Shown: positions 2,426 to 27,259, numbered from the stretch's first letter. The stretch: 64,000 bases of DNA from an uncultured Roseovarius sp. (GCF_947259555.1 NZ_CAMYMD010000084.1:62001-126000), one strand, 5' to 3'. Program-made: numbers and translations. Notes: generated by a model from the sequence alone, not told the origin.

Positions 2426-3445
2426 ATGCCGAAATATCTGAGTTACACCGCTGTGGCCGCGATCAGCCTTGCCTTTGCCGGTGAGGCGATGGCAACCGAA
2501 TGGAACGTCTCGCTCTGGGGCAAGCGCCGGGCGTTTACCGAGCATGTCGAGAAGCTGGCCGAATTGGTGAGTGAAAAGACAAATGGCGATTTCACCCTGA
2601 ACATCAGCTATGGGGGCCTCTCGAACAACCGCGAGAACCTTGACGGGATTTCCATCGGGGCCTTCGAGATGGCGCAGTTCTGCGCGGGCTATCACCGCGA
2701 CAAGAACCCGACGATCACCGTTCTGGAACTGCCGTTCCTGGGCGTCGAGACGCTGGAGCAGGAGCGCGCGCTGTCGATGGCGCTTTATGATCAGCCAGCG
2801 GTCAAGGCCGATCTGGCGCGCTGGAACGCGACGCTTTTGATGCCCTCGCCGATGCCGCAATACAACCTTGTGGGTCTGGGCGACGCACCCCGCAGCCTTG
2901 ACGATTTCGAAGGGTTGAGCGTGCGCGCCACCGGCGGCATCGGGGCCGCGATGGAGGCCGTGGGCGCCGTGCCGACCTCGATGTCGGCGACCGAAGTGCG
3001 GCAGGCGATGGACAGCGGCGTGGTCAAGGCCGTGGCCTTTGCCCCGCATGCCCATATGGCATTTGGCACCATAGAGAACGCGAAATGGTGGACCTCGAAC
3101 CTGAACCCCGGTACGGTGAATTGCCCGGTTGTGGCCAATACCGACGCGCTCGACGGGTTGTCGGATGATCATCGCGAGGCGCTGTTGGGCTCGATCGACG
3201 AGTCGCTTGATTACTACATCGACAACTATCAGAACAACACGCTCGAGGCCTGGGGCCCGGCGCTCGAAGAGCGCGGCATCGAGGTGATCAGCTTTGACGA
3301 GGAGTCGCTCGCGAAGTTCGAAAAGGCGGTGGCCGGTCCCGCCGCAGCCGCCTGGATCGAGGACATGGGCAATCGCGGTATTCCCGCGCAGGAGCTCTAT
3401 GACTTCGCCACCGGCAAGCTGGCGGAACTCAAGGGCGGCTCCTGA
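2426..3445 (+). CDS. dctP: TRAP transporter substrate-binding protein, DctP family
   Basis: Signal peptide and DctP-like fold motifs ('VRATGGIGAAMEAVGAVPTSMSATEVRQAMDSG'); followed by DctQ and DctM. Confidence 0.88.
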   Translation: MPKYLSYTAVAAISLAFAGEAMATEWNVSLWGKRRAFTEHVEKLAELVSEKTNGDFTLNISYGGLSNNRENLDGISIGAFEMAQFCAGYHRDKNPTITVLELPFLGVETLEQERALSMALYDQPAVKADLARWNATLLMPSPMPQYNLVGLGDAPRSLDDFEGLSVRATGGIGAAMEAVGAVPTSMSATEVRQAMDSGVVKAVAFAPHAHMAFGTIENAKWWTSNLNPGTVNCPVVANTDALDGLSDDHREALLGSIDESLDYYIDNYQNNTLEAWGPALEERGIEVISFDEESLAKFEKAVAGPAAAAWIEDMGNRGIPAQELYDFATGKLAELKGGS

Positions 3446-3456
3446 GCCTGAGCTTT

Positions 3457-3493
3457 GCGGCCCGTGATGTATGCGTCGCGGGCCGTCTTTTTC
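3457..3493 (+). terminator. Stem-loop with T-run between dctP and dctQ (terminator/attenuator or mRNA stabiliser)
   Basis: CGGCCCG (3458-3464) / CGGGCCG (3479-3485) followed by TCTTTTT. Confidence 0.7.
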
Positions 3494-3514
3494 GACCTGA
3501 GCGGGAGATGCACC

Positions 3515-4147
3515 ATGGCGGGAGCGGCCTCTGTCCTTTCGGACAACAGCACCCTGAGCAGGCTTGATCGCGGCCTCTACCGGATCGAGCGGCAGCTTGC
3601 GCTCTTAAGCGGGCTGGCGGTTTTCTCGCTCATGGTGCTGGCGGTGTTTTCCGTCGGCGGGCGCAACTTCTTCAATCAGCCGCTGCCCGGATATGTCGAC
3701 TGGATCGAGCAGATCATGCCGCTGATTGCCTTCATGGGCGTGGCCTATACGCAGCGCGATGGCGGGCATATCCGCATGGATATCTTCGTCGGGATGTTCA
3801 GCGGCCGGGCGCTCTGGCTGATCGAGTTGATCACGACGCTGGCGGTTCTGGCGCTGATGCTGCTGCTGGTCTGGGGCAGCTGGGCGCATTTCGGGCGCAG
3901 TTTCGATTGGAATGCGCCGCTCTGGAGCCGGGACAGCACCATCGACATCGCCCTGCCGATCTGGCCTGCGAAGATCCTGGCACCGATTGCCTTTGGCGTG
4001 CTGTCGCTGCGGCTGATGTTGCAGGTCTGGGGATTCGGGCGGGCGCTGATCACCGGGGCTGAGCGGCCCGTTGCCGTGCCGCTGATCGAGGATGCCGCGG
4101 CACAGGCCGCGCGTGAGGCCGCGCATGTCAGCGGCCGTGATGAATAA
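3515..4147 (+). CDS. dctQ: TRAP transporter small permease, DctQ family
   Basis: Four hydrophobic helices, 'GRNFFNQPLPGYVDWIEQIMPLIAFMGVAYTQRDGGHIRMDI'; ATG 3515 preferred over 3455, which lies in the stem-loop. Confidence 0.85.
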   Translation: MAGAASVLSDNSTLSRLDRGLYRIERQLALLSGLAVFSLMVLAVFSVGGRNFFNQPLPGYVDWIEQIMPLIAFMGVAYTQRDGGHIRMDIFVGMFSGRALWLIELITTLAVLALMLLLVWGSWAHFGRSFDWNAPLWSRDSTIDIALPIWPAKILAPIAFGVLSLRLMLQVWGFGRALITGAERPVAVPLIEDAAAQAAREAAHVSGRDE

Positions 4148-4159
4148 GGATGTCACCTG

Positions 4160-5560
4160 ATGGAGCCAATTGATATCGGGCTGGTCGTGACCGGTATGAT
4201 GCTGGTCGTTGTGATCCTGGGCATGCGCGTGGCCTTTGCCGCCGCTCTTGCAGGCACGATCGGGCTGATCTGGATTTTCTGGTCCAAGAAGGGCTATGCG
4301 GGCGACGAATTTTTCTGGGCGCTGACCGTGGCGGTCAAAACTGCCGGTCAGGTGCCGCATTCCAAGGTCAGCTCGCAAGCGCTGAGCCTCATTCCGACCT
4401 TCATCATGATCGGCTATCTCGCCTATTACGCGGGGCTGACCAAGGCGCTCTTCGAGGCGGCGAAACGCTGGATTGCCTGGGTGCCGGGGGGGCTTGCCGT
4501 CTCCACCGTGTTTGCCACGGCAGGTTTTGCCGCCGTGTCGGGGGCGAGCGTGGCGACGGCGGCTGTGTTTGCGCGCATCGCCATCCCCGAGATGCTCAAG
4601 ATCGGCTATGACAAGCGGTTCGCTGCGGGCGTGGTGGCGGCTGGCGGCACATTGGCGAGCCTCATTCCGCCCTCAGCATTGCTGGTGATCTACGCGATTA
4701 TCGTGGAGCAGGACGTGGGCAAGCTGTTGCTTGCCGGTTTCATTCCCGGCGTGTTTTCGGCCTTTGTCTATGCGCTTTTGATCATCGGTCTGGCGCTGAC
4801 CATCAAAGGGTTTGGCCCGCCGGTGGGTGGCTTTACCTGGCGTGAGCGTTTCGTGTCGCTGCCGCCCGCGCTGCCCATCGTGTTCGTTGTCGTGACGATC
4901 ATCTTTTTCGTCTACAACCCATTCGGCGGCGATGCTTGGGGCACACCGACCGAGGGTGGCGCGATCGGCGCCTTTGTGGTGTTCCTGATGGCGCTTTATC
5001 GTGGCATGCGCTGGCCTGAACTGAAGGACGCACTGCTGGAGACGGCGAAGCTGTCGGTGATGATCTTTACCATCATCTGGGGGGTGCTGATCTATGTGCG
5101 GTTTCTCGGCTTTGCCGATCTGCCATCGGCCTTTGCGGATTGGATTACCTCGCTGACGCTGTCGCCGATGCTGATCCTGATCTGCATCCTGCTGGCCTAT
5201 GCGGTGCTGGGCATGTTCATGGACGCGATCGGCATGCTGCTGTTGACGCTGCCGGTGGTCTATCCGGCGGTGATGGCGCTCAATGGTGGGATCAATGTCA
5301 GCGCGGCGGAGAGTGCCTTTGGCATGAATGGCCAGATGTGCGCGATCTGGTTCGGGATACTGGTGGTCAAGATGGCCGAGTTCTGCCTGATCACGCCACC
5401 TATCGGCCTCAACTGTTTCGTGGTGGCGGGCGTGCGCCCTGACCTGAGCGTGCAGGACGTGTTCAAGGGGGTGATGCCGTTCTTTATCGCCGATGCCGTG
5501 ACCATCGCGCTGTTGGTGGGGTTCCCGGCGATCGTTCTATGGCTGCCGGGTCTGGCCTAG
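4160..5560 (+). CDS. dctM: TRAP transporter large permease, DctM family
   Basis: Polytopic protein with DctM signature regions ('GGTLASLIPPSALLVIYAIIVEQDVGKLLLAGFIPG'). Confidence 0.9.
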   Translation: MEPIDIGLVVTGMMLVVVILGMRVAFAAALAGTIGLIWIFWSKKGYAGDEFFWALTVAVKTAGQVPHSKVSSQALSLIPTFIMIGYLAYYAGLTKALFEAAKRWIAWVPGGLAVSTVFATAGFAAVSGASVATAAVFARIAIPEMLKIGYDKRFAAGVVAAGGTLASLIPPSALLVIYAIIVEQDVGKLLLAGFIPGVFSAFVYALLIIGLALTIKGFGPPVGGFTWRERFVSLPPALPIVFVVVTIIFFVYNPFGGDAWGTPTEGGAIGAFVVFLMALYRGMRWPELKDALLETAKLSVMIFTIIWGVLIYVRFLGFADLPSAFADWITSLTLSPMLILICILLAYAVLGMFMDAIGMLLLTLPVVYPAVMALNGGINVSAAESAFGMNGQMCAIWFGILVVKMAEFCLITPPIGLNCFVVAGVRPDLSVQDVFKGVMPFFIADAVTIALLVGFPAIVLWLPGLA

Positions 5561-9366: not shown

Positions 9367-10379
9367 AGATGAATTTTCAGACAATCGGTGATCTCGCGCA
9401 ATCTTTTGCATTGCGGCGTCAGGGCGTTGAACTCCGACAGCAGTTGGATCGGCTGGGGCAGGAGCTCGGCACAGGGCGTGTTTCTGATCCGGGGCAACAT
9501 CTCTCCGGCCATCTTTTGCCGCTTGCCGATATTGAGCATGAGCTTGTTGTCTTGTCCGGACATCAGACCGCCGCGCGGGAAGCAACCCTCGATACGGCGG
9601 TCATGCAGGCCGCGCTTGAAAGGGTGCAGAGTGACACCACAGATCTGGCCGCTCACGCCTTGTCGTTGAAGGCCACCGGCAATGTGGCACAACTGAATAT
9701 TCTTGTGATCGAGTCCGAGCAGGTGCTCGCCACTTTGGTAGGTGCGTTGAATACGGACGCGGCCGGTCGATCGCTGTTTGCCGGAGCGCAGACGGATAGA
9801 GCGCCGCTCGCGCCAGCTGACATGCTGCTTTCAGAGCTACGCATTGCTTTGGACGGGGTTAAGGATCGAACAGACCTCCTGACGCGCGTTGACGCTTTCT
9901 TTGAGGGTGCGGCGGGTGGGTTTCGGGCAAACATCTACCGGGGGGCCACGTCCGAGGTCGCTCCTTACCAGCTAGGTTCTGGCGAGTCCGTGGCTCTTAA
10001 TATTCGCGCGGACGATCCGGCGCTACGCGAGGCGCTCAAACATGTCGCTCTGATCGCACTTAGTGCAGATGAGACTTTGCCGCTTGCGGATGCCGAACGT
10101 ATCGACCTTGCATCTAATGCAGGTGCGGGACTTCAGGAACACCAGAATGCTCTCACAGCCTTGCGCGCCAATCTTGGGCTTGCAGAGGGCCGCATCGCCC
10201 AAGCGTCTTCGCGGATCGCCGCGGAAATGACGAGCCTTGAAATCGCGCGTTCAGAAATGGTGTCGGCTGACGCCTTTGAAACAGCGGTCGAACTCGAGCA
10301 GGTTCAGTTGCAACTTGAGACCTTGTATACGGTCACCGCGCGCGCGTCGCGGCTCAGCCTTGTAAACTTCCTGTCATGA
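9363..10379 (+). CDS. flgL: Flagellar hook-associated protein 3 FlgL / flagellin-like
   Basis: Follows flgK with 4-nt overlap; 'RSLFAGAQTD' and flagellin-like termini. Confidence 0.8.
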   Translation: MKMNFQTIGDLAQSFALRRQGVELRQQLDRLGQELGTGRVSDPGQHLSGHLLPLADIEHELVVLSGHQTAAREATLDTAVMQAALERVQSDTTDLAAHALSLKATGNVAQLNILVIESEQVLATLVGALNTDAAGRSLFAGAQTDRAPLAPADMLLSELRIALDGVKDRTDLLTRVDAFFEGAAGGFRANIYRGATSEVAPYQLGSGESVALNIRADDPALREALKHVALIALSADETLPLADAERIDLASNAGAGLQEHQNALTALRANLGLAEGRIAQASSRIAAEMTSLEIARSEMVSADAFETAVELEQVQLQLETLYTVTARASRLSLVNFLS

Positions 10380-11488
10380 GTCTGCGATGTCTCCTGGCTT
10401 GTGTGCTTTTGGGGCTTGGGCTGCACTGCAGTCCGGTCGATGCGAGTCCGATCAGGATCAAGGATCTTGTCGAATTTGACGGCGTCAGGGGAAACGACCT
10501 CGTCGGATACGGTCTTGTTGTCGGATTGAACGGGACAGGCGACGGGCTGCGCAATGCTCCGTTCACCGAAGAGATATTGTCCAATATCCTCGAGCGCCTT
10601 GGTATAAATGTCTCGGGAGAGCAGTTTCGGCCAAAGAATGTCGCGGCGGTGTTTGTTACAGCAGAGCTCCCACCTTTCGCGCGCGCAGGCGGACAGATCG
10701 ACGTCACGATTTCGGCGATCGGGGATGCCAAGAGCCTTTTGGGCGGGACGCTGGTGATGACACCGCTGAATGCGGCGGATGGTCAGATCTATGCGGTGGC
10801 GCAGGGTACGATCATTGCCGGGGGCGCCGCCGCAGAAGGCGATGCGGGAGGCGTCGTGCAGGGCGTTCCGACTGCGGGCGTGATCCCGTCGGGTGCGCGT
10901 GTGGAGCGCGAGATTGAATTTGATTTCTCTGCGCTCGACACGATCCGTCTCGCTCTGAGAGAGCCGGATTTTACGACCGCGGCTCGGATCGAGCGCGCAA
11001 TCAACGGCACGGTCGGGCGGGATGCCGCGCTTATGCTGGATTCTGGAACCGTGCGCCTGACGCTTTCGAGGATGCGTGCGGCCTCGCCCGCACATGCGCT
11101 TGGCCGGATCGAGAACATTCTGGTGGAGCCGGAGCGCAAGGCGCGGGTCGTGGTCGATCAGCGTTCGGGCACGATTGTCATGGGTCAGGATGTCCGTATT
11201 TCGCGCGTTGCGGTCTCACAGGGCAACTTGACCCTGCGTATTCAGGAAGCGCCGCTTGCAGTTCAGCCCAATCCTTTTGCCCAGGGCGAGACTGTCGTGG
11301 TTCCTCGGACGCAGGCTGAGATCGAAGAAGAGCCGGGGATCGGACTTGCCGAAGTACCGCCGGGCACATCTCTGGCAGAGGTCATAGCAGGACTGAACGC
11401 ATTGGGTGTCGCGCCACGGGACATGATCGACATCTTGAAGAGCATCAAGGCGGCGGGTGCCTTGCACGCCGAATTCGTCGTGCGGTGA
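10376..11488 (+). CDS. flgI: Flagellar P-ring protein FlgI
   Basis: 'IKDLVEFDGVRGNDLVGYGLVVGLNGTGDG', 'IVMGQDVRISRVAVSQGNLTLRI'. Confidence 0.95.
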   Translation: MSLRCLLACVLLGLGLHCSPVDASPIRIKDLVEFDGVRGNDLVGYGLVVGLNGTGDGLRNAPFTEEILSNILERLGINVSGEQFRPKNVAAVFVTAELPPFARAGGQIDVTISAIGDAKSLLGGTLVMTPLNAADGQIYAVAQGTIIAGGAAAEGDAGGVVQGVPTAGVIPSGARVEREIEFDFSALDTIRLALREPDFTTAARIERAINGTVGRDAALMLDSGTVRLTLSRMRAASPAHALGRIENILVEPERKARVVVDQRSGTIVMGQDVRISRVAVSQGNLTLRIQEAPLAVQPNPFAQGETVVVPRTQAEIEEEPGIGLAEVPPGTSLAEVIAGLNALGVAPRDMIDILKSIKAAGALHAEFVVR

Positions 11489-11537: not shown

Positions 11538-13847
11538 TCAGCCAGCCTCCTCCGTCAGGGCCTCTAGGCCAATACGAACCGCGCGATTTGGGTTTGTTGA
11601 AAGGATATGCGTCCCAAGCGCTTTCGCAAGTCTGTCATGCCCCTTGGCGACGGCGCGCTTGAAAAGCTCGCGTTGATACCGAGGCGAACCACGTCTTGCG
11701 CGCAGCAAGCCATAGTATTCCTCCGAGGTTAGCGTGCCGTTGAGCGCCCCCAGAATGATCGGGCTCAGAATGCCCATTTGGTTGAGCGAACTGCCCAGCC
11801 GATGGCCAAGAAGCGGCGCGCGAAGATGCTGCACGTTGTCATGCGTGAAACGCGCCGCATGGTTGGCGTCAAGCGGTTCATAGGGATCGTAGATGATGGA
11901 AACGCGATTGGCGGCCACACTTACTTTGGCGGCGTCACCGTATCTTCCTGTGAAGTCGCGATCCCAAACAACCTTGTAACGGGTCTCCCAAGGGACGACC
12001 GACTTGTCGACCGTGCTTTGTGGCGAGATGGCCACCACATCGCATCCGGGTGCCGCGGCCGAAAAGGCGCATGCCGCGTAGCCGCCCATCGAGGCCCCGT
12101 AGAAAACGACACGTCTGAACTGCTTGAAAAACCCCTCGTCCCGAAGCGCATCGAATTGCTCATGGACCCAAGGCTCCCGATACCAGGTCCATCCGCCGGC
12201 CAGAACGCCCAACATCGACCAGCCGTGATCCTTGATGAAGCTATAACCCCAGGGGCGGCGGTCCTCGCGTTTGGTCATGGCTATGTCGAGATTGTCGAAT
12301 GTCACCACGAGTGTGTCCGAGGCGCGCGGCATATAAAGAAAACTATGCCCGTTTGCGCCGGGTCGGTACCAGCCCTCCCGACCAGCCAATTGACGTGCGA
12401 TTTCGTGCCACCCGTCCTCCGTGCTGGTGGGTTCCGGCGGCTTGGGTTGCACCCTTATGCGGGTAATTTCGTGCCCGTCTTCCTCGCGCGACGACAACGC
12501 GGTGTTAACGCCGAATTTCTTGAGGAATGGGAAGGCGCCCGATCCCTTGCGGACATCCATGAAAACACGCGTGTCGGAATGCATGCAACGGTCGAGGAAT
12601 TTTCCAAGAAACGGCACATTGTAGCGGTCCCCGAACCCGGCAAGGTTGCATAGCACGTCAACTGGGCGCAGATCGTTCTCATCGCGAATGACCCGGATAC
12701 GGCCCGGGTCCACGTCGTGATCCATGAGAAACTCAGTGTAGCTTTGAAGCCAGCCCTGATCCCCCTCCTTGAACTTGCCGCGCCGATTGCAATTGACCAG
12801 CTGAATCTCACAATCGAACTTGTGATGCAGCGCCAGCATGAAACTACGCGCGCCCCCGGTCAGGTCCGCAGCGACGGAGACGCTTTCGAGATCCAACTCA
12901 TCGATCAACGCACCGTCAAAGGTTGCCTTCCCACGGCCCTTGATCGGCGCAAGCGCCGGGTTGATGTTGTGATCCTGAACAAGCTTCTCCAAATAGGAGT
13001 CTTTGGGTGGCAGGCCATCGTGGATATTACCGAGCTGGCGCTTGTTCGAGGCCCAAAGATGCAGGGCTGTGGTTTCCGGCGTGATCAGCCCTGTGGCGAG
13101 CTCTGCCCGGCGCATGAACTTGAACCGCTCGCGGAACGTGATGGGATAGAACGCGTTCAGCGGTTGCACATGGGCCTCAAGCCCGAGGGCGTGGACGTAA
13201 TGTGTGACCATCATTGGCCCCCAGACGCCCCATGGCTGTTGCGAGACATGCACCGGCTTGCCCTTGGCCGCCTGTTTGCGCATCTGCTCCTGTCTTTTCC
13301 GGGGTAGAAAGGGGGCAATCGCATAGCGGTCGGATGTGAATTCGAGCATTTGTTGCAGGATGTCGCTGTCAGCGGGCAAGCCAAGGACCGCATTGTTTAC
13401 ACGGTGCTCTCCGGGCAGCTCATAGCCCATAACGTAGTCGCTGTCATACTCCATTGGGCGGTGACAATAGACATCGGTGTCAACCCAGATCATGCCGGGG
13501 CATTGGTGAATCATGTGAAGCCGAAACCAATCGGCAAAGAGCGCGTAGCTGTTCTTTTGCTCGTATTTTATGAAGTCATCAGTATCGATGATTTCCCGCC
13601 CATCGCGAAAGATGACGCCCGCGGGCAGGTTCGGGATGGGTTCGTATCCAAAGAGCGTAATCTTCTGGCCACGGTCCACGAATGACTTCAGGCAGAGTTG
13701 CTCCATCCAGCTGAGAGGGCCGCCGATCCAAAGCGTGCCAACCTCGCGTTCCCGTGCCACCTTTGCCTCTCCTAATTTGTACGCGCCCTTGGCGGGCAAC
13801 ATTGGGTTTGTTGCAGGGTAACTGCTCTGAATGCGTTTGTGTATCAT
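11538..13847 (-). CDS. Multidomain protein: DXD glycosyltransferase-like N-terminus, Rossmann/methyltransferase-like middle, alpha/beta-hydrolase-like C-terminus
   Basis: 'FADWFRLHMIHQCPGMIWVDTDVYC' (DXD type); 'FYGASMGGYAACAFSAAAPG' (nucleophile elbow). The true start may be the internal Met 'MLPAKGAYKLG'. Confidence 0.65.
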   Translation of the reverse strand: MIHKRIQSSYPATNPMLPAKGAYKLGEAKVAREREVGTLWIGGPLSWMEQLCLKSFVDRGQKITLFGYEPIPNLPAGVIFRDGREIIDTDDFIKYEQKNSYALFADWFRLHMIHQCPGMIWVDTDVYCHRPMEYDSDYVMGYELPGEHRVNNAVLGLPADSDILQQMLEFTSDRYAIAPFLPRKRQEQMRKQAAKGKPVHVSQQPWGVWGPMMVTHYVHALGLEAHVQPLNAFYPITFRERFKFMRRAELATGLITPETTALHLWASNKRQLGNIHDGLPPKDSYLEKLVQDHNINPALAPIKGRGKATFDGALIDELDLESVSVAADLTGGARSFMLALHHKFDCEIQLVNCNRRGKFKEGDQGWLQSYTEFLMDHDVDPGRIRVIRDENDLRPVDVLCNLAGFGDRYNVPFLGKFLDRCMHSDTRVFMDVRKGSGAFPFLKKFGVNTALSSREEDGHEITRIRVQPKPPEPTSTEDGWHEIARQLAGREGWYRPGANGHSFLYMPRASDTLVVTFDNLDIAMTKREDRRPWGYSFIKDHGWSMLGVLAGGWTWYREPWVHEQFDALRDEGFFKQFRRVVFYGASMGGYAACAFSAAAPGCDVVAISPQSTVDKSVVPWETRYKVVWDRDFTGRYGDAAKVSVAANRVSIIYDPYEPLDANHAARFTHDNVQHLRAPLLGHRLGSSLNQMGILSPIILGALNGTLTSEEYYGLLRARRGSPRYQRELFKRAVAKGHDRLAKALGTHILSTNPNRAVRIGLEALTEEAG

Positions 13848-13979
13848 CGTGGAGAGAGCGGCATGTAGATTTTACCTCAGGCGTGTCAGTCGCGCCATGC
13901 CGCTTGCCTCAGCAGGGAGGCACACGCTATTATTGTCGTAAAAAGAACCCGCCGCTTAGAGCAGATACATGAGGCAAAA

Positions 13980-14948
13980 ATGAGTAAAGAGACCTATACC
14001 GTCGTCTCGACCATGAAAAACGAGGCGCCTTATATTCTGGATTGGGTGGCTCATTACAAGACACTTGGATTTGACAACATTCTTGTCTGTACGAATGACT
14101 GCACAGACACGACCGTTGATATTCTGGTGCGGCTGCAGGAGCTGGGGTTTGTCACTCAGCACAACACGATCGTGCGAAAGGCCGGTATTCATCGCAGCGC
14201 GTTGCGCCAGGCAAGTCGGCGCTACGATGTCGTCATGGACGCCAAATGGGTGTTTGTCTGTGACGTCGATGAGTATTTGAACGTGCATATGGGCGATGGT
14301 TCAGTCCACGCTCTGGTCGAGGGCTCTGGCCCCGATGCAGACGTGATTTCAGTGCCTTGGCGCATATTTGGCCCGGCTGGTGTCGAGCATTTCGAGGACA
14401 TACCAGTGGCACAGCAGTTCGCAAAGGGTGAGTTGGAGTGGGACGAAACCGCGCGGCCCAACACCGGTAAATTCGTGAAATCTCTCTACACAAATCAGCA
14501 TAAGTTTCAGCGCATGGGGCTGCATGCGCCTGTCTCTCTTGATGAGCATGTGGCCGACACAAAGCGGGTGCTGCCGGGCGGGGCGGAGTATATCGTCAAT
14601 GGCACGCGCACGGACAACCCGCCGCTCTTTACCCATGCCCAGGTCAATCATTACGCGCTGCGTTCGATGGAAAGCTTTCTGATCAAGCGCGCGCGAGGGC
14701 GAGCGAACCATTCGCATCACGTTCTTGGTCAGGAATACTGGGAGAAGTTCAACCTCAACGACGAGACCGACAAAACCATTGAGCGATATCAGGACAAGAG
14801 CGCCGCGTTGCTTGCAGACCTCAAGAGCGACCCGCAATTGGCGGAGCTACACGCGCGAGGTGTTGAGTGGCACAAGCGCAAGGCGGCTTCGATCCGCATG
14901 GACCCGGAAATGGATGAGTTGGTTGCGGCGATATCCGCTGACCTGTAA
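13980..14948 (+). CDS. Glycosyltransferase family 2-like protein (Glyco_tranf_2_4 type)
   Basis: 'VVSTMKNEAPYILDWVAHYKTLGFDNILVCTNDCTDTT', 'VCDVDEYLNV'. Confidence 0.8.
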   Translation: MSKETYTVVSTMKNEAPYILDWVAHYKTLGFDNILVCTNDCTDTTVDILVRLQELGFVTQHNTIVRKAGIHRSALRQASRRYDVVMDAKWVFVCDVDEYLNVHMGDGSVHALVEGSGPDADVISVPWRIFGPAGVEHFEDIPVAQQFAKGELEWDETARPNTGKFVKSLYTNQHKFQRMGLHAPVSLDEHVADTKRVLPGGAEYIVNGTRTDNPPLFTHAQVNHYALRSMESFLIKRARGRANHSHHVLGQEYWEKFNLNDETDKTIERYQDKSAALLADLKSDPQLAELHARGVEWHKRKAASIRMDPEMDELVAAISADL

Positions 14949-14972
14949 CCGACTGAGTACGGCTTGCCTGGA

Positions 14973-17219
14973 TCAATGCGCGGTTTCGCCCTGTAGCTCG
15001 ACAGAAAAGAACCAGTCGTCTTCCGGGTCGCGGGCGACAATCTCGTCCGGGATCACCCCGGGGCCGGACAGAAAGACGTTCGATCCGAAATGTGAATGCA
15101 GGCGCGACAGCTTTTGCATCCGTGGGCTGGTCAATTCCTCGTAAAACCGGCTGTAATTCGCGGTGGCCCGCAACGCTTCGATCTTGTCCTGATGACACGC
15201 GACCGCATGGTGATGCGCTGCGGTGATTTCGGGGTCGCTCATCAGGCGGTTAAGCTCTCTCTGCATCATCGGCAGGCGCGACAGGATGGTGTGATCCTCC
15301 TGATAATTGTTGTTCATGCGAAACCAATAGGCAAGCCCCTGATCGCGGTCGACATGGTTCACTCGCCCCCTATCGCGCTTGACCAGAAAGCTCTCGGCCG
15401 AGCGCACGGCGTAATGATTGAGTTGCACCAAATCATAGCCGTAGGTCTCGATCGTCGAGCGCCAGCCATTGCGGTACATGTCTCTTGGCAGCGGTTGTCC
15501 CGATCCATTGACCCAGTTGATGTCTTCCCAGAGTTGCGGGTTCAGACCCTTGGGGCGGTGCACGCCTAGTTTCTTGAACAGCCCGATATTCTGAAACAGC
15601 GTCTTGAAGCCCCATGCCTGATGCGGCTTGCGCGCGAATTCCGGGGCGCAGCGCAGGAATTGTTCGGTGATCGGGCGATCTGCATATTCATGCAGGTCAC
15701 TATTGCCGAACAACCGCCATGTCATGGCGATCATGTTGGCGTCTGGCACCGCCTCAAAGAGCGCGTCAAGCGTGCCATCGCCAGTCTTGATGTTGATGAA
15801 TTCATCGACGTCGATACAGGTAGACCATTTGGCCTTGAGGATCACCGGCTCTGCCTCGGCCGATTGAAGCGCGGCATGCTGTGGTTTGAGATCCATTTCG
15901 CGAAAGCGGTTCTCGCGGTGTTGCACCAGACCTTTTCGTTCCAGCATCTGGAGCATCGTGTCGGTGCCGTCGGTGCAGTCATTGGTGTAAACTAGGATAT
16001 CGTCAAAGCCTATGGCGCGATGATAGGCGAGCCATTCCAGGATAAACGGCCCCTCGTTCTTCATCGTGGTGACAATGGCGCACCGCCCCCGCCCCGTTGG
16101 TGCGGCATCCGGTTTAATTTCAGGCATGCGAACCGGCTTGTGCCCAAAATGCTCCTGTGATTGCCGCAGGAGCGGAGGATGTTCGATCAGCGAGGTCTTG
16201 GGTACGATCTTGGAAATTGATGCTGTCGGATGGCGAAGGGCCATGTGACGATAGAACCCCCTTGCCCGAGTTTCATCGGGCCGCGCATTCCCCACACGAA
16301 CAAGCCGCCATATCGCATCATCTGGTAGCTTTGCCGGAGCAAGACACCAGCGCTGCCGCCCGCCCTGAGCATCAAACTGAACGCAGATGTGATCTGCAAA
16401 ACGTATCGGATGTTTGTTGCGTACGCGCCACGGGTAACAATGCCGACCGAGTAGCGGGACAAGGCCGCCATCGGCCGCTACGGCGCTATCAAAAATCGTC
16501 TCATCTGTGGGCGCAATGAGATCGTGAACGTCGATATTGGCCACGGCGCGCGCTTGCGCCAGAAAACGCGCGCGTGTGATTTCGTAGTAACTCAGCGTAC
16601 CGAGTGGCGCGTCCCAAGGTGCAGGTGGTGGAATGTCCATCCGGTCCTTTCCAGGTGCTTCGGGCACGCAAAAAGGATGAGCCTCGGCCGGGCTGTCATG
16701 TCTTCCCAACGGCAGATCGCTCGACAGCAGGATGACATGGCATGACACCCCGTGATCCGCCATGCCTTTCCGCAACTCAGGGGCGAATCGTGTGTCCGTG
16801 CCGGGTTTCGCGCGGTCGAGGATGACCGCACCACTCATGCCATGCTCCCGGACATGATAGGTGAGCCAGGTCAGTACCGTTTCCGCATCTTCGCCATTGC
16901 GTACGGCCGCCAATACGTCGGCCCCTTCAAAAAGCTCCTGCTCCTCTTCTGCGGGTGTCACGTCGAGCATACCGAGAGGCGTGTCGAACTGTGCGCGACC
17001 TTCTGGCATCGAGAACGTCAGGATTGGAGCGCCGCCGACGCTCTTTTGCGCGATCAAGGCGGCGCCCTCTGGAGGGATGATCGAGCCCGCCTCAGTTTGC
17101 GATCCGAAAAAAAGCGTGATCATGCGCGCCCCGGCAGCGCGTAGCTCAACAGCGTCAAGCAAGATGATGTCACCCAGTTTCTGGCTCGCCATCCGGCGTT
17201 CTGTTACGTTATCGCTCAT
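14973..17219 (-). CDS. Large glycosyltransferase: C-terminal GT2-like domain plus N-terminal degenerate GT-like half
   Basis: C-terminal half 'IVTTMKNEGPFILEWLAYHRAIGFDDILVYTNDCTDGTD...CIDVDEFINI'; N-terminal half shows weaker repeats of the same motifs. Confidence 0.75.
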   Translation of the reverse strand: MSDNVTERRMASQKLGDIILLDAVELRAAGARMITLFFGSQTEAGSIIPPEGAALIAQKSVGGAPILTFSMPEGRAQFDTPLGMLDVTPAEEEQELFEGADVLAAVRNGEDAETVLTWLTYHVREHGMSGAVILDRAKPGTDTRFAPELRKGMADHGVSCHVILLSSDLPLGRHDSPAEAHPFCVPEAPGKDRMDIPPPAPWDAPLGTLSYYEITRARFLAQARAVANIDVHDLIAPTDETIFDSAVAADGGLVPLLGRHCYPWRVRNKHPIRFADHICVQFDAQGGRQRWCLAPAKLPDDAIWRLVRVGNARPDETRARGFYRHMALRHPTASISKIVPKTSLIEHPPLLRQSQEHFGHKPVRMPEIKPDAAPTGRGRCAIVTTMKNEGPFILEWLAYHRAIGFDDILVYTNDCTDGTDTMLQMLERKGLVQHRENRFREMDLKPQHAALQSAEAEPVILKAKWSTCIDVDEFINIKTGDGTLDALFEAVPDANMIAMTWRLFGNSDLHEYADRPITEQFLRCAPEFARKPHQAWGFKTLFQNIGLFKKLGVHRPKGLNPQLWEDINWVNGSGQPLPRDMYRNGWRSTIETYGYDLVQLNHYAVRSAESFLVKRDRGRVNHVDRDQGLAYWFRMNNNYQEDHTILSRLPMMQRELNRLMSDPEITAAHHHAVACHQDKIEALRATANYSRFYEELTSPRMQKLSRLHSHFGSNVFLSGPGVIPDEIVARDPEDDWFFSVELQGETAH

Positions 17220-18322
17220 GGTGCTGCCCCACCTCGTGCCAATCGCATCTGGGCGGCGATGAAGGCTCGGCCATCTTCCGCGCTTGGCGGTGTGCTGCCC
17301 GTCAGAAAGCCGAGCCGAAACGCGAGCCTTAGCGCTTCGACATCCTCCGATAGTGCTTGATACCGCGAGTCGTGCGCCTTGAGGCAGGCCCTGTGGGCGG
17401 TCTCGACATTGGGAAGGCTCATCAAACGCACGACCTCGGCATGCGTCGCCTCCAGCATGGGGAGAATTTCGCCGGCCTCTTCATTGTTCCAGTTGCGCTC
17501 TGCCCAGTAGGACAAACCGATTTCGCGATCCATGTGATTGGGCAAGCCCCGCGCGCGTTTGACCATGAATTCCTCGACCGAGCGAAGGGAATAATGATTA
17601 AGCCATAGGCGGGGCGAACCAGCGGTCGCCCCGTAGAGCGTTATGGCGGCGTCATTGCGTGAGAACCCGTCATTCTGGCGCGCCCCGTCCGGGCCGAGCC
17701 AGCGCGCTGGCTTTCGCGGACGGGCGCGCGGGCGATGCACACCGGGCTGGCGGAATGCAGCTGGGCGGTGCAGGGTCTTGAACAGATGCGCGAGCGGGAA
17801 ATGCAGATCAAATGGCGCGGCTCGGGTGAAACGTTCTGGTGTCAGGCCTGCAGTTCGCCTTTTCTGCCCCCCTGAGCCATAAAGACGCCACGGCAATGCC
17901 AAGGCATCGAATGCACCGGACGTTTTCTCGAAATTCAAGAGCGTTTGCCGAAGCGTATCGTGTGGCGCGCAGATAAACTCGTCGCAATCGAAGAACAGCG
18001 CCCACTCCGCAGTCGTGTAGATGTCTGTATCGCGCAGATGACGCAACGCTTGCCATTGCACCGATTTACCGCCCTTCGGAACGAAAGGCAGATGCACGAT
18101 GCGATCATCCTGAGCGAGCGCGTCGAGGAGCGCGTCACTGCCATCTGTGCAATCATGGCTCAATACCAGCATTCGGTCGAACCCGGCCGCCAGATGGTGC
18201 GCAATCCATTCCACGACATAGGGACCGTCATCGCGCAAGCATGTGATACCCAAAAAGCCCAACGCTATCCTCTGCTCCCTCGCCCAACATCTTTTTTGCT
18301 TGATTATAAGCCGCAACGTCAA
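17216..18322 (-). CDS. Glycosyltransferase family 2-like protein
   Basis: 'LRDDGPYVVEWIAHHLAAGFDRMLVLSHDCTDGSD...FFDCDEFI'; 4-nt overlap with the 748-aa gene. Confidence 0.8.
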   Translation of the reverse strand: MTLRLIIKQKRCWAREQRIALGFLGITCLRDDGPYVVEWIAHHLAAGFDRMLVLSHDCTDGSDALLDALAQDDRIVHLPFVPKGGKSVQWQALRHLRDTDIYTTAEWALFFDCDEFICAPHDTLRQTLLNFEKTSGAFDALALPWRLYGSGGQKRRTAGLTPERFTRAAPFDLHFPLAHLFKTLHRPAAFRQPGVHRPRARPRKPARWLGPDGARQNDGFSRNDAAITLYGATAGSPRLWLNHYSLRSVEEFMVKRARGLPNHMDREIGLSYWAERNWNNEEAGEILPMLEATHAEVVRLMSLPNVETAHRACLKAHDSRYQALSEDVEALRLAFRLGFLTGSTPPSAEDGRAFIAAQMRLARGGAAP

Positions 18323-18391
18323 ACAAAGTCACTCTCGGTACCCGACATATGCAAAAATTCTCGCGTTGCGACCATAAACAGGACCGAGCAG

Positions 18392-19156
18392 ATGATCACA
18401 TTCGACGCAGCGATGCGAGCCCTCGACACGCCTGCGATATCCGACTTGAAGACGACCGCGCTTGACGAGAGCGACATGGTCAACCTTATTCTTCAGCGAT
18501 CCGAGATTATTCGGGATCAACCAAGGTTCAATCGCTATATCCGGGCCTGGACCCGCGGCGATGACACACCTCTGCGAGAGTTGATCGACCAGATGGGGGT
18601 CGAGGAGCTGTCGCGTCGTGCCGCTGCATTCATTTACCTTGAATATCTCGAGCTTCGCTGGATTTTCGAGGACAAGCCGCCAAAAAATATTGCCGATATC
18701 GGTTGCGGTTACGCGTTCTTTGATCTTTTCCTTGCCCGGGATCACGGCTGCGACGTGGCGCTCATTGACCTGGAGAGCAATGAAAACCGGCATTTTGGAT
18801 TTGAGGCAGAAGGCGCGGCTTATTCCAGCCTGAAAGTGGCAAAAAAGCTTTTGACGGATAACAAGGTACCTGAAAAAAAGATTCAGACATTCAATCCTGA
18901 GACGGATGATGTCACGACGATGCAAGAGTTAGATTATGCGTTCAGTTTCATATCTTGCGGGTTTCACTATCCTTGGAGCGCCTATCGCGATTTTTTCAAA
19001 AATTGCGTTGCGCAGGATGGTCGGACGATCCTTGATCTTCGTGCCCGTACGCTAGGTGACGTGATGCTGGAGCTTTCGGAGTTCGGATATGTGCGCGCGC
19101 TCACCAAGGCGGCGAACAACAGCGCGCATCGCGTGATGATCGTCAAGGCAGCCTGA
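18392..19156 (+). CDS. SAM-dependent methyltransferase-like protein
   Basis: 'NIADIGCGYAFFDLFLARDHGCDVALIDLESN' motif I/II-like; ATG 18392 chosen because the longer ORF overlaps the opposite-strand glycosyltransferase. Confidence 0.6.
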   Translation: MITFDAAMRALDTPAISDLKTTALDESDMVNLILQRSEIIRDQPRFNRYIRAWTRGDDTPLRELIDQMGVEELSRRAAAFIYLEYLELRWIFEDKPPKNIADIGCGYAFFDLFLARDHGCDVALIDLESNENRHFGFEAEGAAYSSLKVAKKLLTDNKVPEKKIQTFNPETDDVTTMQELDYAFSFISCGFHYPWSAYRDFFKNCVAQDGRTILDLRARTLGDVMLELSEFGYVRALTKAANNSAHRVMIVKAA

Positions 19157-19188: not shown

Positions 19189-19926
19189 TCAGAAATATCC
19201 TCTGACGAGACTTTGCGCGATTAGTGTCCAGCCATCCGCAATGACAAAGAACGCGAGCTTGAACGGCAAGGACACAATCGCTGGCGGCACCATCATCATG
19301 CCCATGGACATCAGGATCGCGGCGACGACCAGATCGATCACCAGAAATGGCAAAAAGATCAGGAACCCGATTTGAAAGGCACGTGAGATTTCCGAGAGCA
19401 TGAAGCTCGGGACGAGAACCGAGAGCGGCGCGTCGGGACTGGCGATGATGCCGGATGCATCCGGTCGAAGCGCGGCCATGGCAGCAAAGGTGTCGCTCTC
19501 CACGCGCCCGAACATGAACTGGCGAAACGGGACCAGCGCGCGTTCGATGGCAAGATCGGCCTCGAGCTCTTCCTGAAGGAGCGGATTGATACCCGTGGTC
19601 CATGCGTCCATGAAAACAGGCTCCATCACGAAATAGGTCAGAAACAACGCCAAACTGACGATCAACATGTTGGGTGGCGATTGTTGGAGGCCGATGCCCT
19701 GCCGCAGGATCGAAAGGACTGTGACCACGAACGGAAAGCACGTGATCATTATGGCCAGCCCGGGCGCGAGGCTGAGAACTGTGATGAGAGCAATAATCTG
19801 TATCGTGCGCGCCGATATCGAGGCGTCATCGCCCAAGGAGATCGAGAGATCCTGTGCCGTTACAGGCACGGTGAAGCCGACTGTGAAGATGACTGCAATA
19901 AACACAGCCGCGAGACTATTCCTCAT
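19189..19926 (-). CDS. fliP: Flagellar export protein FliP
   Basis: 'LAPGLAIMITCFPFVVTVLSILRQGIGLQQSPPNMLIVSLALFLTYFVM', 'PSFMLSEISRAFQIGFLIFLPFLVIDLVVAAILMSMGMMMVPP'. Confidence 0.97.
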   Translation of the reverse strand: MRNSLAAVFIAVIFTVGFTVPVTAQDLSISLGDDASISARTIQIIALITVLSLAPGLAIMITCFPFVVTVLSILRQGIGLQQSPPNMLIVSLALFLTYFVMEPVFMDAWTTGINPLLQEELEADLAIERALVPFRQFMFGRVESDTFAAMAALRPDASGIIASPDAPLSVLVPSFMLSEISRAFQIGFLIFLPFLVIDLVVAAILMSMGMMMVPPAIVSLPFKLAFFVIADGWTLIAQSLVRGYF

Positions 19927-24149: not shown

Positions 24150-25019
24150 ATGTTCGGAATCATCGGCATTGTCGTTATCTTCATCATGGTCTTTGGCGGC
24201 TACGTGGCCGCCGGGGGCAAGCTTGGGATCATTCTCAAGGCGTTGCCATTCGAGCTCATGATGATCGGAGGAGCGGCTGTAGGAGCATTTTTGATAAGCA
24301 ACGATGGCTCCGCGATTAAACACACGCTCAAAGATGTCGGCAAGGTATTCAAGGGCCCGAAATGGAAACCGCAAGACTACCAGGATCTGCTTTGCCTCTT
24401 ATTCGAATTGATCCGTTTGGGGCGACAGAATCCGATTGCGATCGAAGAGCATATCGAGGCACCTGAGGACTCTGCCATTTTCTCGAAGTATCCGAAAGTA
24501 GTGGCCGATACGGAAGCGATTGCCCTGATTGGGGATACCCTGCGATCCGCCTCCATGAATTATGATGATCCACATCAAGTCGAGGAAGTTCTGGAAAAGC
24601 GAATGGAGGCCAGCCTGCATCACGCGCTCCATTCCAGCCATGCATTGCAAACCATGGCCGATGCCCTGCCTGCGCTCGGCATCGTTGCCGCGGTGCTCGG
24701 TGTTATCAAGACCATGGCGTCCATTGATCAACCGCCGGAAATCCTTGGAAAGATGATCGGCGGTGCGCTGGTCGGCACATTTCTCGGCGTGTTCCTGTCA
24801 TATGGCTTGGTTGGGCCTTTTGCGGCAAAGGTCAAAGACGTGGTTGAGGAAGATGGGCACTTTTACCAACTCATTCGCGAGGTTCTGGTCGCCAATCTTC
24901 ACAACCATGCCACAAACATCTGTATCGAAGTTGGGCGCCAGAACACACCGCATCACAAGCGCCCAAGCTTCATTGCTCTCGAAGACGCATTGAAATCACT
25001 GAAACAGGATGCAGCGTGA
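24150..25019 (+). CDS. motA: Flagellar motor stator protein MotA
   Basis: 'MFGIIGIVVIFIMVFGGYVAAGGKLGIILKALPFELMMIGGAAVGAFLI', 'ADALPALGIVAAVLGVIKTMASIDQPPEILGKMIGGALVGTFLGVFLSYG'. Confidence 0.97.
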   Translation: MFGIIGIVVIFIMVFGGYVAAGGKLGIILKALPFELMMIGGAAVGAFLISNDGSAIKHTLKDVGKVFKGPKWKPQDYQDLLCLLFELIRLGRQNPIAIEEHIEAPEDSAIFSKYPKVVADTEAIALIGDTLRSASMNYDDPHQVEEVLEKRMEASLHHALHSSHALQTMADALPALGIVAAVLGVIKTMASIDQPPEILGKMIGGALVGTFLGVFLSYGLVGPFAAKVKDVVEEDGHFYQLIREVLVANLHNHATNICIEVGRQNTPHHKRPSFIALEDALKSLKQDAA

Positions 25020-27259
25020 TGCGGCGTATCGTCTTCGTTGCCGTTCTAATGCTACCGGCCTCGTTTGCTTGCGCCCAATCCATCCGGGTGCGTTCCGGGG
25101 AGCACGAGGGGTTTTCACGTCTCGTTCTCGACATGCCGGCACGTCTGGAATGGTCAAGCGAGCGGCGTGAAGGTGGCGTATCGGTGGTTCTTAAGACTGA
25201 TCGGCCTGAGTTTGATATACGCGGAGTTCATGATCGTTTGACCGAAGGGCGTCTCAAGGAGATCATCGCCCCGGAGGGCCAGAAGCGTCTCGATTTGACG
25301 TTCGCGTGTGATTGTGACGTGAACTTTTTCTGGCACGACAAATCCATGTTGGTCATCGATATTGAGGACAACCCGGTTGGTGCCACGCGCCCGTCCGAGC
25401 GAGAGCTGGTGACCGACGAGGAAAATACCGTGCCGCTAGAGTTCTCTGATGCTTTGCGCCCGATCTCTCGTGCCGTTGAAATGACAACGAAAGCGATCAT
25501 TTCTGGTGCCCAAGAGGGCCTAGCCCGAACTGACTCTGGCAGTGGCTCTCTCCCAGACATGGAAAAGAACCTGATGGCGGAAATGGACCACGCTGCGCGA
25601 CTTGGATTGCTTGAACCATCGATTGTGAAGCAGGCAGAGCGTCGGACGAGATCTGTGCCAGCTCTGAATACGAACGCCGCAGGTCCGAAAATCCAAGGCA
25701 CGTCCTCGCATCATCCATTGCAGAACATGAGGGTTGCACCCGCGGGCGGTCTAGAGCATCTGGTCAGATCCCGAAATCCGGGTGATAGTCGCCATCGCAT
25801 CTTATCGGAGTGTCTTTCCGAGCACCTTGTCGATGTTCCGGCTTGGGGCGCGGATGCGCCTTTTCATGTACAGGTAGGGGCGTTGAATCGGGGCCTCACC
25901 CGCGAATTTGACATGGCGGATCCGGAGGCTATCCTCGCGTTGGCGCGGCTATACGTATTTTTTGGGTTTGGCGCGGAGGCCGCGCAAGTCGTCGCGCTCG
26001 CAGAGCCTTTTACCATCGAGTTGCAGATTGTCGGGGAAATGGCCGCCCTCGTCGATTCTTTTGAGTCAACGCGCGAACATTTGCTTCGGAATGATCTCGG
26101 CTGTGACGGTCCAAGTGTGGTTTGGGCTGCAATTGCTCACCCCACCATCCCGGCAGATCAGCCACTTGATCACCCGGCCATATTGCGATCCTTCGGGGCC
26201 TTGCCCGGGCACTTGCGCCGTCACCTTGGCCCGGAGCTGGCTCGGAAGTTTCTGGAGGCCGGTCATCGGGATACGGCGCATTCGATATTGAGGACCATCC
26301 GATATGCCGAGCCATCCGAGGCACCGGCCAAGGAATTGGCAACGGCGGAACTGGCCTTTGCCAATGGCAAGGATAAACTGGGTGAGGCTGCTCTTGGAGC
26401 CGCGATAGAACATAGCCTAGAGCCATCTGCAAAGGCTGTACTGGCATTGATCGAACGCCGGCTTGGCGAAAATCGACAGGTCCCGTATGACAGTGCGCAA
26501 CTGGCCGGTGCCTACTTCCAGGAACATCGCGGAGAACCCTTCGGGCGCGCGCTTGGCAATGCCTATGTACGGGCGTTGGCGGCGGCGGGGGCATTCGAAG
26601 ACGCATTTTCCGAACTTCGGCGCATCGCTCCCGACCTGATGCAAGCGACGGAAGCCGAGACACGGAATGATCTAGTCAGGCTGTTGGTCGAGCAGGCGGG
26701 AGATATCGACTTTTTGCGTTATGCGGCAGGAGCCCCCTCCGAGCATCTGCGAGTGCTACCTCATGAAACGGCGCTCAGTATCGCAGAACGGCTTTTGAAC
26801 GTTGGACTTGTCTTGGAGGCATCTCAAGTCATGGATCAGGTGAACGCAGGCGTGCAAAGTGAACGGCATAGCCTGATCCTTGCGGAAATCGAATTGAAGT
26901 TGGGGCACCCGCACGCGGCTGAAGCGGAGTTGCTGGGCCTTGTTAGCCCTGAGAGCGCCCGCGCAAAAGCGCGTGCTCGCAGTATGTTGGGGGATTATGC
27001 GGCTGCTGCGGAGTATCTATCCGACTTGGGCGATTCGGCTGAGGCGCAGCAAGCGGCCTGGAGGGCGGAAGATTGGTCCAAACTGGCGCAATCCGATGAC
27101 GAAGTCATCCGGAAACTGGCGGCCTTGGTCGTTGAGGAGGAAACGCCGGATGGCGAGGACCTTCTGGCGCGCAATCTACGCCTTTTGGACCAAAGTGCGA
27201 GTTTGCGAGACGCTCTGGTCGAGCTCCTTGAGAGCCCGTCCTTCGCCACAAGCCCCTGA
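25016..27259 (+). CDS. Large predicted periplasmic protein: AMIN-like N-terminus and helical-repeat C-terminus, flagellum-associated
   Basis: Signal peptide; 'IRVRSGEHEGFSRLVLDMPARLEW...' AMIN-like pattern; long alpha-helical TPR-like region; 4-nt overlap with motA. Confidence 0.65.
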   Translation: MMRRIVFVAVLMLPASFACAQSIRVRSGEHEGFSRLVLDMPARLEWSSERREGGVSVVLKTDRPEFDIRGVHDRLTEGRLKEIIAPEGQKRLDLTFACDCDVNFFWHDKSMLVIDIEDNPVGATRPSERELVTDEENTVPLEFSDALRPISRAVEMTTKAIISGAQEGLARTDSGSGSLPDMEKNLMAEMDHAARLGLLEPSIVKQAERRTRSVPALNTNAAGPKIQGTSSHHPLQNMRVAPAGGLEHLVRSRNPGDSRHRILSECLSEHLVDVPAWGADAPFHVQVGALNRGLTREFDMADPEAILALARLYVFFGFGAEAAQVVALAEPFTIELQIVGEMAALVDSFESTREHLLRNDLGCDGPSVVWAAIAHPTIPADQPLDHPAILRSFGALPGHLRRHLGPELARKFLEAGHRDTAHSILRTIRYAEPSEAPAKELATAELAFANGKDKLGEAALGAAIEHSLEPSAKAVLALIERRLGENRQVPYDSAQLAGAYFQEHRGEPFGRALGNAYVRALAAAGAFEDAFSELRRIAPDLMQATEAETRNDLVRLLVEQAGDIDFLRYAAGAPSEHLRVLPHETALSIAERLLNVGLVLEASQVMDQVNAGVQSERHSLILAEIELKLGHPHAAEAELLGLVSPESARAKARARSMLGDYAAAAEYLSDLGDSAEAQQAAWRAEDWSKLAQSDDEVIRKLAALVVEEETPDGEDLLARNLRLLDQSASLRDALVELLESPSFATSP

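Follow-up and report, generated by a model that had tools for sequence, protein, structure and literature searches.

We analysed a window of 64,000 nucleotides (the whole stretch, to which positions refer unless another sequence is named) from a draft genome (G000, contig C84). The organism clusters with Roseovarius, and the genus sample containing this genome includes Roseovarius mucosus and Roseovarius sp. 217. Five non-flagellar ORFs (P1 to P5, 11538-19156) lie between two convergent flagellar genes. On the left the insertion is bordered by flgI (10376-11488, plus strand; Pfam FlgI, E = 1.8e-135), the 3'-most gene of motB-flgEKLI, and on the right by fliP (19189-19926, minus strand; Pfam FliP, E = 4e-69), the last gene of fliFHNP. 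The order is thus motB-flgE-flgK-flgL-flgI on the plus strand, the island, and fliP-fliN-fliH-fliF on the minus strand, followed by fliL-motA-flhA-fliR. The minus strand encodes P1, P3 and P4 and the plus strand P2 and P5, so the island is not a single operon; a scan for promoters and terminators returned matches at chance level. The GC content and codon use of the island equal those of the flanks, which led us to reject recent foreign DNA as judged by composition. P1 to P4 recur in the same order in four other species, excluding an assembly accident. The ORFs are real and sit amid core flagellar genes as originally predicted, with coordinates correct to within start codons.

Two further features of the flagellar region were recorded. 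A TRAP transporter (dctPQM, 2426-5560) lies immediately 5' of motB and is placed likewise in two Roseovarius relatives, G169 and G172. A 747-aa ORF without a Pfam match (25016-27259, between motA and slt) evolves fast for a flagellar-cluster gene, with 25-39% identity among relatives and a dN/dS of about 0.24.

P2 (13980-14948, plus strand, 322 aa), P3 (14973-17219, minus strand, 748 aa) and P4 (17216-18322, minus strand, up to 368 aa, the start codon being uncertain) had been described as GT2-like, and all three match Pfam Glyco_tranf_2_4 (PF13704; family GT2_4) far above its cut-off of 27.5 bits, at 80.1, 74.3 and 61.4 bits (E = 1.8e-22, 1.2e-20 and 1.2e-16, respectively). They also match GT92 (PF01697), more weakly; in P3 it is the C-terminal half that belongs to GT2_4/GT92. 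An acidic metal-binding motif can be read in each (DVDEY in P2, DVDEF in P3, DCDEF in P4), and its DVDE core is invariant in an alignment of 21 P3 orthologues. Because the island proteins contain no strongly hydrophobic segment, all are probably cytoplasmic.

P3 differs from other members of Glyco_tranf_2_4 and GT92 in possessing a second, divergent GT-A-like half. In the same 21-orthologue alignment, these extra 370 N-terminal residues are less conserved than the C-terminal glycosyltransferase domain. In an AF2 model (pLDDT 85), two GT-A-like units come after a beta domain; we named the N-terminal unit from the order of its strands and helices. That unit keeps a single invariant motif residue, the last Asp, which suggests that it is probably inactive or altered. 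Although a sequence search for solved homologues of P3 found none, the best solved Foldseek matches were the GT92 enzyme GalS1 and tandem GT-A polymerases, among them E. coli K4 chondroitin polymerase and heparosan synthase, which likewise carry two GT-A-like units per chain. Identity to these polymerases is about 10% and whole-chain TM-scores are low; moreover, P3 has no fixed DXD in its N-terminal unit and thus gives no indication of two activities. Our literature searches found no paper on what P3 homologues make.

P1 (11538-13763, minus strand) was originally read as a 769-aa DXD/hydrolase-like protein. Both of those domains are present, but the length needs correction and the protein fuses three domains, as judged from alignment, AF2, Foldseek and weak Pfam matches. 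The ORF reaches 13847; since homologues begin M(A)R.REVGTLWIGG, the start is probably the GTG at 13763, giving about 741 aa. Across 21 aligned homologues the N-terminal, glycosyltransferase-like domain has an invariant DTD as its DXD motif. The AF2 model (pLDDT 83, pTM 0.59) places a Rossmann-like, methyltransferase-like domain in the middle and an alpha/beta hydrolase at the C-terminus, where S558 (within GASMGG), D626 and H654 are invariant in 21/21 sequences; the Ser-Asp-His triad was assigned from motif and order, not geometry. Foldseek matched the hydrolase domain to esterases and acyltransferases, including antigen 85C, the O-acetyltransferase of the meningococcal capsule and one subunit of Gap123, a streptococcal complex associated with glycosylation. 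The Gap123 subunit and the O-acetyltransferase share the fold, but at 12% identity and without the fusion to glycosyltransferase-like and Rossmann domains. P1 of the window gave no Pfam match above the curated cut-off, its homologues match Gb3_synth, Gly_transf_sug and Esterase weakly, and a sequence search for solved homologues found none. In other genomes the parts of P1 are separate genes. Taken with the Pfam matches of P2 to P4, the folds of P1 and P3 point, as proposed, to an island of glycan-active genes. Relatives of the P1 hydrolase domain on three Thioclava plasmids (NZ_CP149927, NZ_CP149516 and NZ_CP135444) are annotated as 'phosphoadenosine phosphosulfate reductase', a label at odds with the fold seen in P1, that of an alpha/beta hydrolase.

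P5 (18392-19156, plus strand, 254 aa, probably starting at 18392) had been called methyltransferase-like. It does match Methyltransf_23/25, but weakly, its Methyltransf_23 score of 16.7 bits falling below the curated cut-off of 27; a homologue scores similarly. Among the five genomes that carry the island at the flgI-fliP junction, this one alone has P5 there. P5 homologues adjoin the module in Planktotalea, Aliiroseovarius, Pseudohalocynthiibacter and Leisingera, and in Planktotalea arctica P5 likewise lies beside and divergent from P4, suggesting that it belonged to the incoming cassette. P5 probably arrived with the cassette and was then lost from the other four carrier species, in which a search for a P5 remnant found none. 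Such a loss would also be expected if the island were passenger DNA in decay, without any function today. P1 to P4, however, are intact in 5/5 carriers and evolve under strong purifying selection, with dN/dS values of 0.04-0.19 between close carriers that resemble those of flagellar genes. These genes are thus still selected, making decay highly improbable.

Full-length P3 occurs in 8/60 genomes of the genus sample. The order flgI, P1, P2, P3, P4, fliP is identical in five of the eight (this genome, G185, G168, G173 and G190); the remaining three (G179, G196 and G156) carry the module at a different locus and have a flgI-fliP junction without the island. The nearest flagellar relatives lacking the island, G169 and G172, have flgI-fliP gaps of 237 and 259 bp. 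When 80 P3 sequences were placed in a tree, the copies at the flagellar junction of the five species formed one clade (support 98) neighbouring Planktotalea and then Marivita, with other Roseovarius copies elsewhere. Ten flagellar proteins, concatenated, gave a tree with the same branching order for the five species. The single P3 clade and its agreement with the flagellar tree are consistent with one insertion in the ancestor of the five species, and this history fits one horizontal acquisition and vertical descent since. Co-inheritance with the flagellum, part of the original prediction, is therefore borne out for these five species but not outside them, where the module is not linked with genes of the flagellum.

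This lack of linkage was evident across the family. P3 homologues were present in 125/150 sampled Rhodobacteraceae genomes, and 33/150, this genome counted, had a long match (bit score of 500 or more). None of the other 32 had long P3 near fliP, the two being separated by 90 kb or more, or lying on separate contigs; some of these contigs are short, so that linkage is firmly excluded for the well-assembled genomes only. Among the best 80 loci from named genomes, four were flagellar, all in Roseovarius, and 76 lay elsewhere. One locus that might have passed for flagellar, in Ruegeria sp. HKCCD8929, was rejected since an aldehyde dehydrogenase and an MFS transporter separate slt from P3. We accordingly rejected family-wide linkage to flagellar or flagellin genes: outside the five-species clade, synteny comparison places the module at unrelated loci in most relatives.

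Nor was the module confined to genomes with a flagellar marker, for which fliP alone was used. Named module genomes had a fliP match in 28/32 cases and none in 4/32, and three module genomes in the family sample (G036, G118 and G019) gave no fliP match. Two of these, G036 and G118, are both at least 99% complete; G036 is of the same species as one of the four fliP-less named genomes. In the family sample, fliP was present in 30/33 module genomes and 94/117 others, with no significant association (p = 0.20). Given this distribution, the proposed role as a flagellin or flagellum glycosylation module is unsupported as a general statement, and for the five-species clade it is unlikely.

At other loci the module has sulfotransferase-like and epimerase-like genes among its neighbours. 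In G156, two sulfotransferase-like genes lie within the module (L069, 14342-16266), one with sub-threshold Pfam sulfotransferase matches and the other with none; sulfated products are thus possible in some species. Proteins of about 300 aa without a Pfam match are encoded 3' of the module in Leisingera, Marinosulfonomonas and others (L177, 8423-9325, and 15 other loci). The P3 locus of a record titled Nocardioides marinus DP1N28-1 (L159) clusters with Leisingera in the tree, and the record is probably mislabelled or contaminated.

Flagellin glycosylation islands in Campylobacter, Caulobacter and Pseudomonas place glycosyltransferases near flagellar genes, as does the island described here. Unlike them, however, it holds no flagellin, Maf or nonulosonate gene. 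The single flagellin gene found sits on a different contig, where the ORFs of the 14 kb that we read include no evident glycosyltransferase, and the PF01973 (MptE-like/Maf) profile had no match in the genome. Two NeuB-family synthases are encoded on another contig (C47, 19617-26426; L184, L185 and L187) and, by inspection, a PseB-like dehydratase nearby. These genes may form a nonulosonate locus, which is where the sugar for glycosylating flagellin would more usually come from. Literature searches returned nothing relevant on flagellin glycosylation in Roseovarius or Rhodobacteraceae.

Within the Roseovarius clade, the cassette might nonetheless have been recruited for glycosylation of flagellin or of some other part of the flagellum, its position giving co-expression with the flagellar operons. 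Retention at the junction by all five carriers over long divergence would agree with such recruitment, as would the concordant trees and the orientation of P4-P3, which share the direction of fliFHNP in the four relatives that have no P5. In those four, transcription could run through from the flagellar operon into P4-P3; in the window, where P5 and fliP are tail-to-tail, P5 interrupts any such read-through. CtrA-like sites with one mismatch precede motB and flgE, but the island has none, and the two-mismatch matches there fall inside coding sequence, so that CtrA co-regulation was rejected. In Phaeobacter inhibens DSM 17395, flgI and fliP have consecutive locus tags, and a P3 homologue, PGA1_RS19920 (53%), lies on a 262-kb plasmid with no P1, P2 or P4 annotated alongside. 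A screen of about 13,000 transposon mutants of P. inhibens identified 40 genes needed for swimming, among which the portion of the report available to us does not list the P3 homologue (PMC12363192); this silence is weak negative evidence, as coverage was incomplete and redundancy is possible. Together with the presence of the module in genomes lacking fliP and its separation from flagella elsewhere, these observations leave flagellar recruitment improbable.

A related proposal is that the glycan made by the cassette serves attachment or biofilm formation and that selection links the cassette to the flagellar cluster, coordinating swimming with sticking. Roseovarius mucosus forms slimy colonies and rarely swims (PMC4511512), a rhamnose operon lies alongside flagellar genes on a Cereibacter sphaeroides plasmid (PMC11974857), and P. 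inhibens motility is affected by rhamnose synthesis and algC (PMC12363192). The block itself, however, contains no polymerase, flippase, export or regulatory gene, and the module is unlinked in most relatives. Moreover, a single insertion underlies all five species, so selection for linkage is not demonstrable. We consider this coordinating role quite improbable.

The reading we prefer, with a probability of roughly 0.7, is that the island is a horizontally spread cassette of Rhodobacteraceae that assembles and decorates glycans in the cytoplasm and that came to lie at a permissive flagellar junction. We take its flagellar position for a landing site rather than a function because that position is confined to five Roseovarius species, with the module elsewhere in other genera and in three Roseovarius; because genomes without fliP carry the module, whose presence is not tied to fliP; and because unrelated genes occupy the same junction in other species. 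A comparison of fla1 clusters found non-flagellar inserts at exactly the motB-flgEKLI/fliFHNP junction, of 108 genes in Dinoroseobacter shibae and two genes in C. sphaeroides (PMC11974857). The window differs from these in carrying a compact glycan cassette retained in five species. By inspection only, glycerol-metabolism-like genes lie beside fliP in two further Roseovarius genomes (G200 and G178). Against the preferred reading count the long retention and gene orientation noted above, and the co-occurrence with fliP within the genus (8/8 full-length-P3 genomes, p = 0.09).

Under the landing-site reading, the cassette would have inserted once between the convergent operons in the ancestor of the five species and been retained since. 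From folds and motifs, P2, P4, the C-terminal half of P3 and the N-terminal domain of P1 may act as soluble GT-A enzymes that transfer sugars from nucleotide sugars to an acceptor. The P1 hydrolase domain would add or remove an acyl group, and methylation would fall to P5, perhaps with the P1 Rossmann domain. Together they would yield a branched and substituted oligosaccharide carried by a glycoconjugate that is secreted or on the cell surface, with export genes elsewhere. That an undescribed acylated and methylated glycan made by the cassette was captured by the clade's flagellar cluster, where it decorates the flagellum or couples surface-glycan synthesis to flagellar assembly, seems to us doubtful.

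Position alone is therefore misleading here: glycan genes that lie among flagellar genes can be passengers specific to one clade. The combination of a tandem GT-A protein, a GT2_4 protein and a GASMGG hydrolase emerges as a widespread candidate surface-glycan module of marine Rhodobacteraceae.
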